The notes under the pieces were generated by a model. It worked only from the letters and a program-made list of their open reading frames with translations, ran no database searches and had not been told where the DNA came from. A DNA stretch of 12,374 nucleotides from Mycobacterium sp. Lineage in GTDB: Bacteria; Actinomycetota; Actinomycetes; Mycobacteriales; Mycobacteriaceae. The translations under genes were made by a program, and so were the position numbers. The stretch covers positions 1,568 to 13,941 of the forward strand of contig JAHFVB010000031.1 of NCBI GenBank assembly GCA_023264755.1. The letters are read 5' to 3'. Position 1 is the stretch's first letter. Every line of letters starts with the position of its first letter. This document shows positions 855 to 8,812 of this stretch, one piece after another.

Positions 855-1711
855 TATGGCCCCGGCTCCAGCGGGATGCGCAACGCGCCGCGGGCCTCGT
901 CCCAGTACGCCGGACGAACTCCGACGGGGATGCGGCCGTAGAGCACCTCGTGGATCAACACGCTGCGGTCGCCGGCCGGGTTGCGCTGCTTGAGCAGGAG
1001 CCCGCCGCTGCGCGGGCCCCGCAACGGGATCAGCAAGAAGTCGTCGTCACTGACCACCGCGGCGACCGCGTCGGAGGCGAATCTGCTCGCCGCCAGCGCG
1101 GCGTCCAGCCGGACGTACCCGTCGGCGGTGAACTCCACCGTCGCTTCGGATGCCTTCGCCGGCCGCAACGGGGCCAGGAAGTCGCGCTCGATCACGTCCA
1201 TGACCGTCTGCATTCCGGTCAGCACCGGTTCGGAGAGCTCCGCGCCGAACTCGACCGTGGCGACTTCGATCAGGAAGACCGTGATGTCGGACGGACAAGC
1301 GTCGCCCAACGCCCACCGGGCGAACGCAATGGCGTGGTCCCACCGAAACGAATGCGTGTGCAACCCCTGCAGCGGCGGTAGTTCCTCGAACTCGGAGCCG
1401 GGCACGCGGTAGACCGTGCCCGGGGCGGCCCCGGTCGCGGACGCGTCGACGATGACGACCCGCTTGGCCCCCCGCATCCGGAACGCGGTGTCCATGCCTG
1501 CGGTGCCGCCATCGACCAGTTGCGCCCCGTCCGGCACGCCCAACTCCCAGAGCTGACGCACCAGGACGGGTCCGACCCCGTCGTCCCCCCGCAGCAGATT
1601 GCCGCAGCCGACCACGAGCAGCTCACAACCCGGCGGCTCGAGGTCGACTTCCGCCGAACCGCCTGTGGGCGAAACTATTTCACCGGGTGCTGGCTTCAAA
1701 GCAGGGATCAC
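854..1711 (-). CDS. [NiFe] hydrogenase maturation endopeptidase (HybD/HupD family) with extra C-terminal domain
   Basis: This is the nickel-dependent protease that removes the C-terminal tail of the hydrogenase large subunit after the NiFe site is built. I chose the GTG at 1709-1711 because it overlaps the hucL stop in a GTGA arrangement; the frame stays open further upstream, but that part lies inside hucL. The product is 285 residues. The family signature GCGNLLRGDDGVG lies at residues 35-47. By comparison with E. coli HybD (E16, D62, H93), the nickel ligands are probably D44, D89 (in VIVDA) and H120 (in HTHSF). The protease domain ends near residue 180. Family members are usually about 150-165 residues, so the remaining roughly 105 residues form an additional domain that I cannot name. 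The substrate is almost certainly HucL, encoded immediately upstream. Confidence 0.9.
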   Translation of the reverse strand: MIPALKPAPGEIVSPTGGSAEVDLEPPGCELLVVGCGNLLRGDDGVGPVLVRQLWELGVPDGAQLVDGGTAGMDTAFRMRGAKRVVIVDASATGAAPGTVYRVPGSEFEELPPLQGLHTHSFRWDHAIAFARWALGDACPSDITVFLIEVATVEFGAELSEPVLTGMQTVMDVIERDFLAPLRPAKASEATVEFTADGYVRLDAALAASRFASDAVAAVVSDDDFLLIPLRGPRSGGLLLKQRNPAGDRSVLIHEVLYGRIPVGVRPAYWDEARGALRIPLEPGP

Positions 1712-3318
1712 ACCATTCCGTTGATGACGAACTTGGACAGTTCCTTCCCCGTCTTCCCATCGTAGGCGTGCACGGTGCAGACCAAGCAGGAATCGAAGCT
1801 CCGCGCCACGTGACCCAGCTCGACTGGATCCTCGGCGTCCACGATCGGGGAGCCGACCAGGGCCTGCTCGATGGGTCCGAGCACGTCCGAACCATCGCGC
1901 GGGCCGATGTTCCAGGCCGTCGGAGTTACCACCTGGTAGTTCTTTATCTTGCTGTCCTCGATGACGATCCAGTCCGAGAGCGCACCACGCGCGGCCTCGG
2001 TGGAGCCGAAGCCCTTTCCGGAGGCATGCTCGACGGGCTTGGTGTAGAAGCTCTCCTTCAGATCGAGCTCGTCGAGCCACTGGCGCGCCCACTTGTAGTA
2101 CTTGGGCGCCTCGTGCATACGGGCCATCTGGCGGACGAAGACGCTCGGGCCAATCGAATTCATCAAATTGGGGAACAGCGGGTCGTTGTCCTGATGCGGC
2201 AAGGCATTCGGGCCGCCCGCGGCCATGCGGCGGGCCAGCGGCCCCGCCTCGAGCGGCACGTTGCCCAGGCCGCCGCCGATGTCGTATCGCGGCGACTTGG
2301 CCCAGCTGTACTTGCCCTGCTTGCGTCCGGCCTCGGGGTCGATGGGGATGGTCTCACCGTCGAACGGATGCAGCGGTCGGCTGCCCTCGTAGAACGAGTG
2401 CGTGACGTCCTCCCGAACCTTCGCCTGATCGAAGGCGTGCCACTGCCCGTTCGTGTAGATCCCCGAGCGGCCGATCAACGCATCGTTGCGACCGTCGATG
2501 GTGGGATGTTCGTAGCGCACGGGATCGAAGTAGGTGCCGGTGGCCAAGTAGCTGCCAACGCCCTGGCCGTACTTGTCCAGGCCGACGTCGAGGCAGTAGC
2601 GGATGAAGAATCCGCAGTCGCTGTCGTGCTGGGACTCGTTCTCGTCGACCCAGGCCAGCATGTCCTCCCAGGTCTTCACCTCCAGCCAGCGATCGACGCT
2701 GCAGCCCAGCCACTGTCCCTCCAGCCACGCGTCCTTCCAGTGCTCGAGGATCGCAATCGAGCGGGTCACGTCGGACAGCGTCGGGGCACACATCACGCCA
2801 CCGGGCACCATGAAGCTCGAATGCGGCCACTGGCCGCCGAAGATCGCATACACCTCGACCGGCTTGTTCGAAAGCACCACGCCCGGTTGGTAACTGGTCC
2901 CCACGTATGGTGCGAAGCGGCGCACCGCCTCGGCGTACAGCGGCGACTTGGCATAGTTCTTGTTGGTGAGATCGATGGCGAAGAGCGCATAGAAGTAGCG
3001 CGGAATCGACTGCAGCGTCTCCGCGGCCTGGCAGATGTTGCGCACCAAGGTCGCGTTGGGTGGCATGTGCGTCGCCCACGCCGTGTCGAGTGCATAGGCG
3101 GACTTGTAGAGATGACTTCCGCCGCAGATGCCGCAGATGCGCGGGCACACGACGAGACCGGCCTGAGGATCCTTGCCACGCAGGATGATCTCGAATCCGC
3201 GGAACATCGCGGCCTCGGTCCAGGCGGACGTGACGACACCATCCTCGATGGTGACCCGGACGTCGAGGTCACCCTCGACGCGTCCCAGCGGGCTGACGTA
3301 GAGGTCGAGTGCGGTCAT
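1708..3318 (-). CDS. hucL: Huc [NiFe] hydrogenase large (catalytic) subunit
   Basis: This is the catalytic subunit that binds the NiFe(CN)2CO centre and oxidises H2. The 536-residue precursor has the N-terminal motif RICGICGGSH at residues 60-69 (C62 and C65) and the C-terminal motif DSCLVCTVH at 509-517 (C511 and C514). These four cysteines are the expected metal ligands. The proline usual in the DPCxxC form is Ser510 here. Nineteen residues follow His517 (AYDGKTGKELSKFVINGMV) and should be cleaved off during maturation. An ATG start preceded by GGAAGGA was chosen. The gene lies 75 bp after hucS and overlaps the protease gene by 3 bp. The pairing with a signal-less small subunit and HucM-like protein points to group 2a Huc, the enzyme known to consume atmospheric H2 in mycobacteria, rather than the group 1h (Hhy) or group 3b enzymes. 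Confidence 0.97.
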   Translation of the reverse strand: MTALDLYVSPLGRVEGDLDVRVTIEDGVVTSAWTEAAMFRGFEIILRGKDPQAGLVVCPRICGICGGSHLYKSAYALDTAWATHMPPNATLVRNICQAAETLQSIPRYFYALFAIDLTNKNYAKSPLYAEAVRRFAPYVGTSYQPGVVLSNKPVEVYAIFGGQWPHSSFMVPGGVMCAPTLSDVTRSIAILEHWKDAWLEGQWLGCSVDRWLEVKTWEDMLAWVDENESQHDSDCGFFIRYCLDVGLDKYGQGVGSYLATGTYFDPVRYEHPTIDGRNDALIGRSGIYTNGQWHAFDQAKVREDVTHSFYEGSRPLHPFDGETIPIDPEAGRKQGKYSWAKSPRYDIGGGLGNVPLEAGPLARRMAAGGPNALPHQDNDPLFPNLMNSIGPSVFVRQMARMHEAPKYYKWARQWLDELDLKESFYTKPVEHASGKGFGSTEAARGALSDWIVIEDSKIKNYQVVTPTAWNIGPRDGSDVLGPIEQALVGSPIVDAEDPVELGHVARSFDSCLVCTVHAYDGKTGKELSKFVINGMV

Positions 3319-3393: not shown

Positions 3394-4359
3394 CTAGACC
3401 ACGAACATGTCTTCCTTGGACCATTGCGGCGCCGCGATGCGGGCCGCCGCCGCGTGCGCCATGTAGGTCAGATGGTCGGTGCCCTCGGGCACTTCCTTCG
3501 GGATGATCCCGCTGACATTCTGCGTCTTGAACACGGTTCCTGGCGCCAGTTCGAAGTGCGGAAATTCGGGCTCCGTACACCCGATGCAAGGCATTCCGGC
3601 GCGGGTCTTCGAGGACTGCCGGTTCCACAGGATCCGGTTGCACGGCGAGTGCGTCATCGGTCCGCGGCAGCCAAACTCGTAGAACAGGCAGCCGGTCCGA
3701 GTGCCCTCGCCGAAGGACATCGTGGACTGCTTGTACTCGAAGAATTGCACACGTGTGCAACCGGTTTGGGTGAACGTCTTGAAGAAGGTCTCGGGCCGAT
3801 GCAGTTCGTCGAGGGTGAGGTCACCCGCGCGACCGGTGGCCAACGCAACGAGGATCTGAGTGATCCAGTCGGGGTGGGCCGGGCAACCGGGGATGTTGAT
3901 GACGGGCAGCCCCATCTTCGACTTGAAGTCCGGGCCCAGGAACCCGCCCTTGTTGCGCTTGTGGAACTGCAGCCCGGTGGACCCCGACGGGTTGGGCTCC
4001 ATCGCCGGGATGCCGCCCCAGCAGGCGCAGTCGCCGATCGCGACGACGATCTGGGCGGCCGCGGCCAACTCGTTGACCCAGTCCTTCATCGGACGGTCGG
4101 CGAACATGTCGGCCCGGCCGTCGTAGGCCTCCATCACAGAACCCTCGAACACGAAGATGTCGAGGGGCCGTTCGCCGCTCACGCAGTCGTTGAACACCTT
4201 CTGGGCGTTCTTGCCCAACTCGAGGCCCAGCGACGGGTGCCAGATGAGGTCGAGTCCGAAGTCGACGATCAGGTCGACGACGTTGGGCTCCTCGGCATTG
4301 AGGAACGACATCGTGTTGCCACTACACGCGCCACCCTGAAACCACAGCACCGAAGCCAT
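3394..4359 (-). CDS. hucS: Huc [NiFe] hydrogenase small (electron-transfer) subunit
   Basis: This 321-residue subunit carries electrons from the NiFe site through three iron-sulfur clusters. It begins directly with MASVLWFQGGACSGN and has no Tat signal or C-terminal membrane anchor, as expected for group 2a. Proximal cluster: C12, C111 and C159 are present, but the fourth ligand of the CxxC motif is Asn15. Distal cluster: C201, C224 and C231 align with the usual cysteines, but the usual His is Gln198. Medial cluster: C240, C258 and C261 match the usual three. Thus each cluster has three obvious Cys ligands, which fits the published Huc structure with three [3Fe-4S] clusters. C113 is an additional cysteine next to C111. 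The ATG start has a GAGAGGAG ribosome site. The gene lies 71 bp after hucM, with a hairpin just upstream of the ribosome site. Confidence 0.97.
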   Translation of the reverse strand: MASVLWFQGGACSGNTMSFLNAEEPNVVDLIVDFGLDLIWHPSLGLELGKNAQKVFNDCVSGERPLDIFVFEGSVMEAYDGRADMFADRPMKDWVNELAAAAQIVVAIGDCACWGGIPAMEPNPSGSTGLQFHKRNKGGFLGPDFKSKMGLPVINIPGCPAHPDWITQILVALATGRAGDLTLDELHRPETFFKTFTQTGCTRVQFFEYKQSTMSFGEGTRTGCLFYEFGCRGPMTHSPCNRILWNRQSSKTRAGMPCIGCTEPEFPHFELAPGTVFKTQNVSGIIPKEVPEGTDHLTYMAHAAAARIAAPQWSKEDMFVV

Positions 4360-4430: not shown

Positions 4431-4985
4431 TCACCGAAGTTGCCTGCCGAACGATTTGGCCACCTGGAGCATGAATCCGAGCCCGCGGGCCACGTCGGGA
4501 TCCTTCATCGCCTTCAACATCCCGAAGAAGCCCTTCGGGCCCTCCGCATTTCGGGCCGTGGCCGACTTCGCCTCCACCAGGGCGTCGCCCAGTTGGGTGA
4601 GCACCTCGGTGGCCTGCGGGTCGGTGAGCCGCGACGACAGCAACGAGTCGAGCGCCGGCGTCGCGCCGATGACCTTGTCGGACAGCGTCGCGAAGCTGCC
4701 CGCCAACCCGGCCAGGTCGACCGCTCTCAGGGCCTCTACCCCCGGAATCGACTGAGTGATCGAGGCACCGTTGGCGTCGGACTTCAACTCCCCTATCGCT
4801 GCGGTCAGCGACTCGCTGATCTCGTCGCTGCGTCGCACCAGGCCGTCGAGCCCAGACACGAGTATGGCCAGCAGATCAGCGTGCTCGAGCAAATCGTTGA
4901 GCGACGCCGCCACCCGAGGATCGTCCAGTTTTGCCCGGACCTGATCGGCTGGTGACGTTGCGAGAGCTTGAACGTTCGCCGTCAT
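4431..4985 (-). CDS. hucM: HucM-like DUF1641 protein, membrane-linking stalk subunit of Huc
   Basis: This is the first gene of the operon, encoding 184 residues. In the M. smegmatis Huc complex, HucM forms a central stalk that holds the HucSL units and conducts menaquinone from the membrane to the electron-acceptor site. The recognisable DUF1641-type feature is the C-terminal segment at residues 149-180, including GFFGMLKAMKDPDVARG. The rest is predicted mainly alpha-helical with alternating hydrophobic residues (for example residues 26-66 and 83-141) and Ala/Ser/Leu-rich linkers. There are no cysteines, so it is unlikely to carry metal clusters, and no classical transmembrane helix or signal peptide is evident, consistent with a peripheral stalk. 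The ATG is preceded by GGAGG with a 5-base spacer. Position directly upstream of hucS supports the call. Sequence conservation in this family is low outside the C-terminal motif. Confidence 0.85.
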   Translation of the reverse strand: MTANVQALATSPADQVRAKLDDPRVAASLNDLLEHADLLAILVSGLDGLVRRSDEISESLTAAIGELKSDANGASITQSIPGVEALRAVDLAGLAGSFATLSDKVIGATPALDSLLSSRLTDPQATEVLTQLGDALVEAKSATARNAEGPKGFFGMLKAMKDPDVARGLGFMLQVAKSFGRQLR

Positions 4986-5178
4986 GAGGACCTCCGTCTT
5001 CGCGCTGTGTCCCTGGTCTCAAACTAGCTCGCCGAACTGGCTGCGCCTATCGCATTCACGCAGATACCATCAGGATTGCGAACACTTCAATGCGCTGGCG
5101 CGCAGTAGATCTGGCCAAATTGCACGGCTCTTTAGGTGAGGCTCCACTAACTTGGAAAAACTGCAGTCGAGGCCCTAG
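4986..5178. promoter_or_regulatory. Divergent promoter region between hucM and the AraC-type regulator
   Basis: This 193-bp region separates the leftward huc operon from the rightward regulator and must hold promoters for both. It is more AT-rich than its flanks. The clearest element is an iron-box-like palindrome at 5132-5150. For the regulator, TAACTT at 5148-5153 could be a -10 element, placing the transcript start about 20 bp before the GTG; no good -35 is seen. For hucM, I find no convincing -10/-35 pair, although TAGTTT at about 5021-5026 on the minus strand fits the loose mycobacterial TAnnnT pattern. A clear GGAGG ribosome site sits 5 bases before the hucM ATG. Binding sites for the AraC-type protein would be expected here but cannot be identified from one sequence. 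Confidence 0.6.
5132..5150. promoter_or_regulatory. Candidate IdeR/DtxR iron box
   Basis: The 19-bp sequence ttaggtgaggctccactaa matches the mycobacterial IdeR consensus TTAGGTTAGGCTAACCTAA at 15 of 19 positions (mismatches at 7, 13, 14 and 15), with both outer arms intact (TTAGGT and CTAA). It lies 28 bp upstream of the GTG of the AraC-type gene and 146 bp upstream of hucM. It overlaps a possible -10 (TAACTT, 5148-5153), the position expected for repression of the regulator by iron-loaded IdeR. The match is seen in the sequence; binding is inferred. A hand estimate suggests a match this good is unlikely by chance in a 193-bp region. Confidence 0.6.
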
Positions 5179-6240
5179 GTGTCACGTCTGACGCGACTCG
5201 GCTTCATCGACACCCGACGCACCAGCGACCCCGTGCGGCGCAAGGTGCGGTCCCGCGGCGTACCACCCGCGCTCGCCAGCAACGAGATCTTCTACACCGA
5301 AAGCATCCGTGAGGCAGCCAAACTCATGGGTCAGGCGCTGTCGCCGTCGACCCTGAACGTGGTGCCGGAACACGTAGACGGATTCGCCGCGGCCATGCAC
5401 GGCGTGCGGCTGCGAAACGTCAGCATGCTGTACTTCGATCTGCACGTCCCCGCCACCATTGACATCCCTTGCCTCGGTAGGTACTTCGCAGTTCACATGC
5501 CCACGAACGGCGCCGCGTTGGCCACCCACCGGGACAAGACCTTCGAAGCCAACAGCACCTGCGCATTGGTCACCAGCCCGGGCCAGGCGTTGACCATGCG
5601 GCTGGACCTCGACTCGCCGCAGTTGGTGATTCGCGTCGAGGAGCCCGCGATGGCCACCTACCTCACCCGATTGCTCGGTCGAAGACTGCAGCACCCCTTG
5701 GCCTTCGAGCCGGAGTTCGACCTCACCACCGAGGCTGCGATGCGCTGGCACGCCGCCATCCAGCTGATCCATACCGAGGTATTCCACGCCGGTTCACTGG
5801 TGCAGCACGGGCACGGGATCAGTGCCATCGAGGATTTGGTGATGAGCAGTCTGCTGCACCTGCAGCCGAACAACTATCACGCCGACTTCACCCAGCCGCT
5901 GCGACCGGGCAAGCGCGACGCCGTGGTGCAGGCGGCGATCAAGTACCTCGACGATCATCTGGCCGAACACATCACGATGGATTCGGTCGCCCATGCGGTG
6001 CACATGAGCGTCCGCGCCGTGCAACAGGGTTTCCACGAACAGCTCGGCATGTCTCCGATGACCTACCTGCGAGAGCGTCGGCTGGAGCGGGTCCATGCCG
6101 AGCTCATGGACGCCACGCCCGCCGACGGCATCACCGTGACCGCGGTCGCCGAACGGTGGGGCTTCCACCACTTGGGCAGCTTCGGCGGCGAGTATCGCAA
6201 GCGCTGGGGCGAGTCCCCGTCGCAGACGTTGCGCCGCTAG
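5179..6240 (+). CDS. AraC-family transcriptional regulator next to the huc operon
   Basis: This 353-residue regulator has an N-terminal sensing domain of the AraC-binding type (about residues 35-235) and a C-terminal double helix-turn-helix domain (about 245-353). The first helix-turn-helix is near 264-286 (ITMDSVAHAVHMSVRAVQQG). The second contains the family signature AVAERWGFHHLGSFGGEYRK (322-341) followed by WGESPSQTLR. The GTG start is the first possible codon after an in-frame TAG at 5176-5178, with GAGG as a modest ribosome site; a later start is possible. Divergent placement from hucM makes it the prime candidate for local control of hydrogenase expression. It could be an activator or, by analogy with RipA of Corynebacterium glutamicum, a repressor of iron-rich proteins during iron limitation. 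The ligand, if any, is unknown. Confidence 0.92.
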   Translation: MSRLTRLGFIDTRRTSDPVRRKVRSRGVPPALASNEIFYTESIREAAKLMGQALSPSTLNVVPEHVDGFAAAMHGVRLRNVSMLYFDLHVPATIDIPCLGRYFAVHMPTNGAALATHRDKTFEANSTCALVTSPGQALTMRLDLDSPQLVIRVEEPAMATYLTRLLGRRLQHPLAFEPEFDLTTEAAMRWHAAIQLIHTEVFHAGSLVQHGHGISAIEDLVMSSLLHLQPNNYHADFTQPLRPGKRDAVVQAAIKYLDDHLAEHITMDSVAHAVHMSVRAVQQGFHEQLGMSPMTYLRERRLERVHAELMDATPADGITVTAVAERWGFHHLGSFGGEYRKRWGESPSQTLRR

Positions 6241-6319: not shown

Positions 6320-7423
6320 CTAGCAGATTCGCGGAAGTTGCTCGCCCAGTTCGCGTTCGATCACCCGGGTGGTGCCGAACGGCGTGCGACCGACCACCAT
6401 GCCCGGGTGCTCGGAAACCACCCGACCGATGACCGCCGCAGCCGCCCCCTCGGGCCGCTCGCGCATCGCCGCGAGGACCGCCTCGGTCGCCGTCGGATCG
6501 ACGAAAGCGACCAGCTTGCCCTCGTTGGCCACCTGAAGCGGGTCGAGCCCGAGGAAGCCACAGGCCGAAGCCACCGCCTCGGGCACCGGGATGGCCGCCT
6601 CGTCCAGGGCGACCCCGACCCCGGCCGACCTGGCGATTTCGACCACGGCGGCGACCAGCCCGCCGCGGGTCGGATCACGCAGCGTGTGGATGCCCCCGTC
6701 CGGCGCTGCCGCCAGCATGGCGGCGACCAGTCGGTGCAGCGGGGCGCTGTCGGTGGTGACGACCGTGCCGAAGTCGATCCCGGCCCGCACGCTCATGATG
6801 GCCACCCCGTGTTCGCCGACGTTCCCCGAGACGATGACGTCATCACCGGGACGCGCCAGTTCCGGTCCGATGTTCACACCGTCGGGAATGACTCCGACCC
6901 CGGCCGTATTGACGAACAGCTGGTCGGCACTGCCCTTTCCGACGACCTTGGTGTCACCCGTGACGATGCCTACCCCGGCATTGTCGGCGGCCTCGCCCAT
7001 CGACTGCGCGATGCGACCGAGCAGCTCCAGTTCGAGGCCCTCCTCGAGGATGAACCCGGCGGTCAGCCCCAACGGCTGCGCGCCACTCATCGCCAGATCG
7101 TTGATCGTGCCGTTGACGGCTAGCTCGCCGATGTTGCCGCCGGGGAAGAACAAGGGTTGCACCACGTAGGTATCGGTCGACACCGCGATGCGCCCGGCGG
7201 CGACCGCGAGCACGGCGGAGTCCCGGCTAGGGCCGCCGCCGGAGCCGAACGCGGGCAGGAAGAGGTTCTCGATGAGTTCCTCGGACAACACTCCTCCGCC
7301 GCCGTGGCCCATGACGATGCGCTTGGTCTCCCGCAGCGGAAGTGGGCACACCCAGTCCGCGGGATCGATCGTGACGGGCTGCTGTTCGGCCCCTGGCGAC
7401 TCGGGCAGCGGAGGTTCAGACAT
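6320..7423 (-). CDS. hypE: Hydrogenase maturation protein HypE (thiocarboxamide dehydratase)
   Basis: HypE receives a carbamoyl group from HypF on its C-terminal cysteine and dehydrates it with ATP to a thiocyanate, the source of the cyanide ligands on the active-site iron. The 367-residue protein ends in the diagnostic PRIC, with Cys367 as the acceptor. The AIR-synthase-like ATP-binding fold is shown by MGHGGGG (38-44), [21 protein letters not shown] (residues 82-102), [22 protein letters not shown] and LRDPTRGGL. An N-terminal extension of about 30 residues, rich in Pro and acidic residues, precedes the conserved core. The ATG start overlaps the end of hypD by 8 bp. It is the last gene of the leftward hypFCDE operon and faces the AraC-type gene tail to tail. 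Confidence 0.97.
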
Positions 7424-8531: not shown

Positions 8532-8812
8532 GCCGACTCCTCGCGGGTGGGACGTGCGTCGGATTGGATCCCGGCCAGCTCCTCTTCGAGGATGCCCAGG
8601 TCGGCGAACATCTTCAGCGTGGTGTTGGCGGATTCTTCGTCCAGCCGGCTGATCGCGAAACCGGCGTGCACGATGGTGTATTCGCCAAGCTCCATGTCGG
8701 GTAGATAGGCCAGGCAGACCTTCTTGGTGGTCCCTCCGAAGTCGACCGTGGACATCCGGGTACCCGACTCCTCCCAGATCTCGACTACCTTGCCGGGGAT
8801 TCCGAGGCACAT
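8528..8812 (-). CDS. hypC: Hydrogenase maturation chaperone HypC
   Basis: HypC is the small chaperone that binds the iron being assembled on HypD and then delivers it to the large-subunit precursor. The 94-residue product begins [12 protein letters not shown]. Cys2 is essential in the family because it coordinates iron and contacts the large subunit after Met removal, so this ATG (8810-8812) is certain although the frame is open further upstream. [12 protein letters not shown] (49-60) is the second conserved motif. The C-terminal tail after residue 75 is acidic and somewhat longer than in short family members. The gene begins inside the last 28 bp of hypF and ends overlapping hypD by 4 bp. 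In the cell HypC would act on HucL. Confidence 0.96.

Follow-up and report, generated by a model that had tools for sequence, protein, structure and literature searches.

In corynebacteria, DtxR represses ripA, and the AraC-type protein RipA in turn represses genes for iron proteins when iron is low (PMC13001254, PMC1382209). The latter report saw no band shift with its own ripA fragment, although it cites an earlier report of binding. The mycobacterial IdeR regulon includes mbt and irt, and regulation of the hydrogenase operon huc in M. smegmatis involves GylR and carbon catabolite control. Papers published in 2026 report a pull-down with the huc promoter and gel-shift assays of GylR, Crp1, and Crp2, after which they still describe the direct transcription factors of the operon as unidentified (PMC13098282, PMC13289019); the words "AraC" and "iron" are both absent from the main text of PMC13098282. 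Searches of an open-licence library showed no account of huc being controlled by iron or by AraC.

Here, we analyzed a 12,374-nucleotide stretch of Mycobacterium sp. DNA (the window), from an assembly of 4.75 Mb that is 70% complete, in which a putative iron box precedes an AraC-type gene beside huc. The arrangement resembles the DtxR-RipA pair in that a DtxR-family box lies before an AraC-type gene (by 32 bp in the case of ripA [PMC1382209] and by 28 bp here), and the product, like RipA (PMC13001254), would act on iron-enzyme genes. It differs in that RipA represses several genes for iron proteins at other genomic locations, whereas the regulator here is divergent from one operon and has a putative operator that is found once per genome, in a place that suggests activation. 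With respect to the IdeR regulon, the box scores like the mbtI and irtA boxes of relatives, but its target would be the regulator of a hydrogenase operon rather than an iron acquisition or storage gene. The operon concerned is the same as that regulated in M. smegmatis.

Results

The relevant features of the window are as follows.

1708..3318, minus strand: hucL, hydrogenase large subunit
3394..4359, minus strand: hucS, hydrogenase small subunit
4431..4985, minus strand: hucM, a DUF1641 gene that heads the huc operon (Pfam PF07849, 1e-14)
5021..5026, minus strand: putative huc -10, TAGTTT
5044..5049, minus strand: putative huc -35, TAGGCG, conserved
5046..5062, minus strand: putative AraC operator, proximal repeat, which overlaps the huc -35
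5066..5082, minus strand: putative AraC operator, distal repeat, 20 bp farther upstream than the proximal one
5132..5150, plus strand: IdeR/DtxR-type iron box, TTAGGTGAGGCTCCACTAA, matching the consensus at 15 of 19 positions, scored with two matrices and conserved in clade A
5148..5153, plus strand: possible araC -10, TAACTT, into which the end of the box extends (read from the sequence; this form is not kept in other clade A loci)
5179..6240, plus strand: AraC-family regulator gene (araC), 353 aa (Pfam PF14525, AraC_binding_2, 2.9e-35; PF12833, AraC HTH, 2.1e-20)
6320..7423, minus strand: hypE, facing the 3' end of araC (TIGR02124, 1.5e-122)

araC is divergent from hucM-hucS-hucL, the first of which was named by position and by kinship to MSMEG_2261 (PMC10017518). 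The placement of hypE against the end of araC is a gene order common to clade A and most of clade B, the two groups of AraC proteins described below. The regulator carries an AraC-type double HTH at its C terminus (PF12833 and PF00165); its relatives in the PDB match through the HTH only (e.g., 3mn2, 2.1e-12), and its closest named relatives are from Mycolicibacterium (84% to M. hodleri). We placed the araC start at the GTG at 5179, immediately 3' of an in-frame TAG, which sets the distance from the end of the box to the gene at 28 bp.

The box departs from the consensus, TTAGGTTAGGCTAACCTAA, at positions 7, 13, 14, and 15 only. The initial annotation had described a 15-of-19 match 28 bp ahead of an AraC gene divergent from huc and overlapping a possible -10, and both sequence and coordinates agree with that description. 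It had also proposed scoring the site with a position matrix, and we used two. Matrix 1, which is symmetric, was built from 22 boxes of the mbtI, irtA, and siderophore-interaction (SIP) genes of relatives and leans toward the consensus, since it was trained on the best consensus matches in chosen regions; it gave the box 19.3, with its training boxes ranging from 6.0 to 24.7 in leave-one-out scoring. Matrix 2 was built from 35 published DtxR sites of C. glutamicum (PMC1382209) and is independent of the selection behind matrix 1, although not as clean; it gave 19.1 (leave-one-out range, 9.7 to 24.6), compared with 18.8 for the ripA box. Both scores thus fall within the leave-one-out ranges, at the level of accepted sites, and the box is the top site in the window with either matrix (runner-up with matrix 1, 9.9). 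Two other stretches were rejected as iron boxes: positions 8705 to 8723 (9.9) are hypC coding sequence, and positions 5070 to 5088 (6.1) fall inside the putative AraC operator. The matrix 1 scan gave no IdeR box at the window's huc promoter.

A first-order Markov simulation from the dinucleotide steps of the window yielded, over 5 Mb, no site scoring at least 19.3 and two scoring at least 14. Among 488,349 positions in 39 loci that surround related araC genes and mostly span 13 kb, 13 scored at least 14 with matrix 1, and 11 of these 13 lay 39 to 65 bp before araC, although they are not independent events because the loci are related. (These are 39 of 42 loci; L042 to L044, which are weak protein matches, were excluded from every count.) The excess was smaller with matrix 2, which scored at least 12 at 11 positions in the 39 upstream stretches versus 5 in the remaining 482,499 positions. 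When the window's own assembly, at its 70% completeness, was scanned for sites with at most three consensus mismatches, only two places were found, one of them adjoining a siderophore-interaction gene; with its four mismatches, the window box just misses this cut.

Conservation was surveyed in 111 araC upstream regions (39 named loci, the window, and 71 regions from further genomes, with overlaps), of which 85 are distinct. With matrix 1, 17 of the 85 scored at least 12, and all 17 belong to two clades that are supported in trees of the AraC protein. (The trees had 54 and 59 rows, so that not every one of the 85 regions is represented; in the 59-row tree, L205 and L220 were misframed and so have spuriously long branches, and neither L037 nor L222 is included.) In clade A, which includes the window, 7 of 10 regions reached 12, two scored 9.7 and 10.1, and the intergenic region of L039 is without the box stretch, which has been lost. 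Clade B includes M. chubuense, M. vanbaalenii, and M. austroafricanum, among others, and 10 of its 11 regions reached 12, the remaining copy being degenerate (7.0). None of the 64 regions outside the two clades did so with matrix 1, the highest scoring 10.1. Matrix 2 gave at least 12 in 15 of the 85, of which 13 belong to clades A and B and the other two, L022 (12.6) and L025 (12.1), do not; clade members that it scored below 12 included L023 (10.3), L024 (11.8), L007 (11.2), and L004, L006, and L038 (all below 9.5). Pairwise identity was 0.78 in the box versus 0.37 to 0.49 in the flanks for clade A (nine rows, without L039) and 0.81 versus 0.34 to 0.70 for clade B (11 rows).

These results support the view that the box before the regulator is, as judged from sequence, a good and evolutionarily conserved IdeR-type site in two clades. 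Before orthologous araC genes, the box is present at 17 of 21 distinct regions within the clades and at none of the 64 elsewhere (matrix 1 scores of at least 12). Because the clade A and clade B boxes differ in form and place, the site may have been gained twice, or it may have drifted and been lost in other lines. With 64 of the 85 regions lacking a site that scores at least 12, the iron input would be confined to two clades and would not be a general feature of huc regulation. In regions outside clades A and B (e.g., L011, L022, and L025), a different conserved element, approximately TTTAGTnAAnnCTTCA, occupies the place of the clade A box.

At E. coli araBAD, AraC acts as a class II activator from two direct half-sites about two helical turns (21 bp) apart, the proximal of which overlaps the -35. 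The huc promoter has a similar layout: its putative operator consists of two direct half-sites in helical phase, with the proximal one over the -35, although the distance is 20 bp here rather than 21. The consensus of the two repeats, which are shifted by 20 bp, is TgCGcAATcCTGACAG for the first and TGCGcGAaAgCGATAGG for the second, and it is the second that overlaps the -35. In the repeat survey, 83 of the 85 regions could be anchored (all but L173 and L174), and at 20 bp the repeats were on average identical at 9.75 of 17 positions, ahead of the second-best shift, 42 bp (7.8). Column shuffles gave a mean of 4.2 (standard deviation, 1.2), and none of 2,000 was as high as 9.75; when the best of all shifts from 17 to 45 was taken, none of 300 shuffles reached this value. 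The anchor for that survey required TANNNT at 17 or 18 bp and so presupposed the spacer, for which reason we took the spacer count from a separate survey in which 81 of the 85 regions were anchored (L039 returned nothing, and a few clade B promoters were mis-anchored). In these 81 loci, TANNNT followed the -35-like TAGGCR at a spacer of 17 in 69 and of 18 in 6, and it was found at none of the spacers 14 to 16, 19, and 20.

The operator also tracks the regulator. A 35-base operator pattern, with at most three mismatches allowed, occurred in 32 of 148 genomes, as a single copy in each and always immediately before araC, and was absent from all 113 of the 148 genomes that lack araC. The three araC-bearing genomes missed by the pattern (araC is present in 35 of the 148) belong to clade A and include the window's own.

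A CRP-like motif, TGTGN8CACA, lies just downstream of the huc -10 in 60 of the 83 anchored loci (L003, L009, and others), where it could block transcription; in the window, it is degenerate (positions ca. 5003 to 5020). Since Crp1 and Crp2 are reported not to bind the M. smegmatis huc promoter (PMC13098282), another Crp/Fnr-type protein may use this site.

Among 297 genomes, the AraC protein was found in 71 and hucS in 81, and all 71 fall within the 81 (lists compared by eye; E value cutoffs of 1e-80 for AraC, which is strict and leaves remoter AraC kin uncounted, and of 1e-120 for hucS). This supports a tie between the regulator and huc. The ten huc loci without araC (L194 to L203) are also without the operator; because three of these stretches are short (520 to 1,290 bases), the absence of araC beside hucS is firm for seven of the ten.

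The ten huc-bearing genomes without araC are 2.5 to 4.5 Mb in size, their hucS is 84 to 87% identical to that of the window, and, subject to the same three short stretches, they have no recognizable hucM beside it. In one of them (G209), an IdeR-like site scoring 16.1 lies ca. 130 bp before hucS (L201, positions 137 to 155), possibly reflecting direct iron control of huc. Other IdeR-like sites were seen 3' of the hydrogenase protease gene: one in L006 (positions 1635 to 1653; 16.2), lying before another gene of the same orientation, and others in L026, L028, and L036 (9.8 to 13.7), ca. 4.2 to 4.3 kb before araC. The window has none at that place.

Discussion

The explanation that we favor is that Fe-IdeR represses araC and that AraC activates huc, in two clades only. 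Taken whole, it seems to us evenly poised between right and wrong. According to this explanation, positions 5132 to 5150 would be an IdeR operator lying across the araC promoter region. Judging from this position and from the known behavior of IdeR and DtxR, Fe-IdeR would hold araC expression low in iron-replete cells, and a drop in iron would derepress it. AraC, probably acting with a ligand, would bind the pair of direct repeats, which lie 20 bp apart and read roughly TGCGnnA...GAYAG, and, with the proximal repeat overlapping the weak huc -35 (TAGGCR), it may serve as a class II activator of hucM-hucS-hucL. We read it as an activator because the conserved repeats both abut and overlap the huc -35 and the -10 follows at a spacer of 17 to 18 bp, as for class II activators. 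Iron would thus set the dose of the huc pathway regulator in two mycobacterial clades, while elsewhere the same regulator and putative operator occur without an iron box. The layout is that of a pathway-specific class II activator, the sign of the regulation being the weakest step.

Several considerations count against this explanation. AraC proteins are able to repress as well as activate, most of the regions (64 of 85) are without a site that scores at least 12, and L039 has lost its site within the window's own clade. Moreover, for low iron to raise an iron-rich enzyme is not an obvious economy. One speculative possibility is that, because Huc hands electrons straight to menaquinone (PMC13098282), it could aid a cell whose iron-heavy dehydrogenases are failing.

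The likeliest of the alternatives, albeit in our view unlikely, is a RipA-like circuit, in which araC would be repressed by IdeR and its product, made when iron is scarce, would repress huc to spare iron. The same wiring is described in C. glutamicum and C. diphtheriae (PMC13001254, PMC1382209), the interval between box and gene at ripA is close to that found here, and Huc is itself rich in iron. However, the putative operator overlaps the huc -35 at its upstream edge, with both the -10 and the start left uncovered, which is an activator's place, although this is a guess from layout and some AraC proteins repress from such sites. The claim in the initial annotation that the regulator represses huc as RipA does its targets is therefore not supported as written.

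It is also improbable that the conserved island serves as the core promoter of araC, or binds some other regulator, and resembles an IdeR box only by coincidence. In favor of this reading, the initial TTAG of the island aligns with the TTTAG of the box-less clade, a -35-like TTGCRT is present ca. 17 bp upstream in several loci, and the clade A and clade B islands are dissimilar. Set against these observations, most of the 19 positions are conserved, more than a hexamer would account for; both matrices place the box among accepted sites; and clade B has a different IdeR-like island ahead of the same gene.

A further question is which DtxR-family protein would use the box. The window's own genome encodes two, one adjoining a sigB-like ORF and the other a ribF-like ORF (labels assigned by eye); the neighborhood of the former matches that of the IdeR gene, which we take to adjoin sigB. 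The mntH-like genes of relatives have a box, AAAAGTKAGGNTANCCGAA, in 12 of the 20 loci examined (L227 to L243), ca. 80 to 100 bases upstream and in the register of the IdeR consensus, so that DtxR-family sites need telling apart. This is presumably a site for MntR, the DtxR-family manganese repressor. The IdeR matrix gives these mntH boxes scores of 9.2 to 17.9, and a matrix built from 11 distinct mntH boxes (whose assignment to MntR is our assumption) gives the araC boxes of L026 and L167 scores of 13.8 and 13.5. For the window box, however, the IdeR matrix gives 18.7 versus 1.9 with the MntR matrix, and the IdeR matrix scored higher in all 17 araC boxes compared. Use of the box by MntR is accordingly very unlikely for the window, and less clearly so for L026 and L167. 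Finally, a functionless chance match, with which the lack of a box at most loci (64 of 85) would fit, is scarcely credible and was rejected on the basis of the simulation (no equally good site in 5 Mb), the 39-locus background, and the retention of the box over diverged flanks in clade A.

Returning to activation of huc by an IdeR-controlled AraC, what would be new is a relay of the DtxR-to-AraC type with a hydrogenase as its target and, by layout, the opposite sign. We tentatively propose, while thinking it somewhat doubtful that every part will hold, both that an IdeR-to-AraC-to-huc relay operates in some soil mycobacteria, with iron shortage raising rather than lowering the iron-rich hydrogenase, and that the divergent AraC is the direct activator that huc has so far lacked in most mycobacteria that carry the operon, with gain or loss of the iron box from clade to clade.

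Soil bacteria take up most atmospheric H2, and the huc enzyme lets soil mycobacteria live on traces of H2 in air. The anatomy of this locus names a candidate regulator of huc, the divergent AraC (found in 71 of the 81 genomes, out of 297, that carry huc), together with its putative operator to the base, and it names a candidate iron input for two clades. If this is true, iron supply would join carbon supply as a control of the atmospheric H2 sink.
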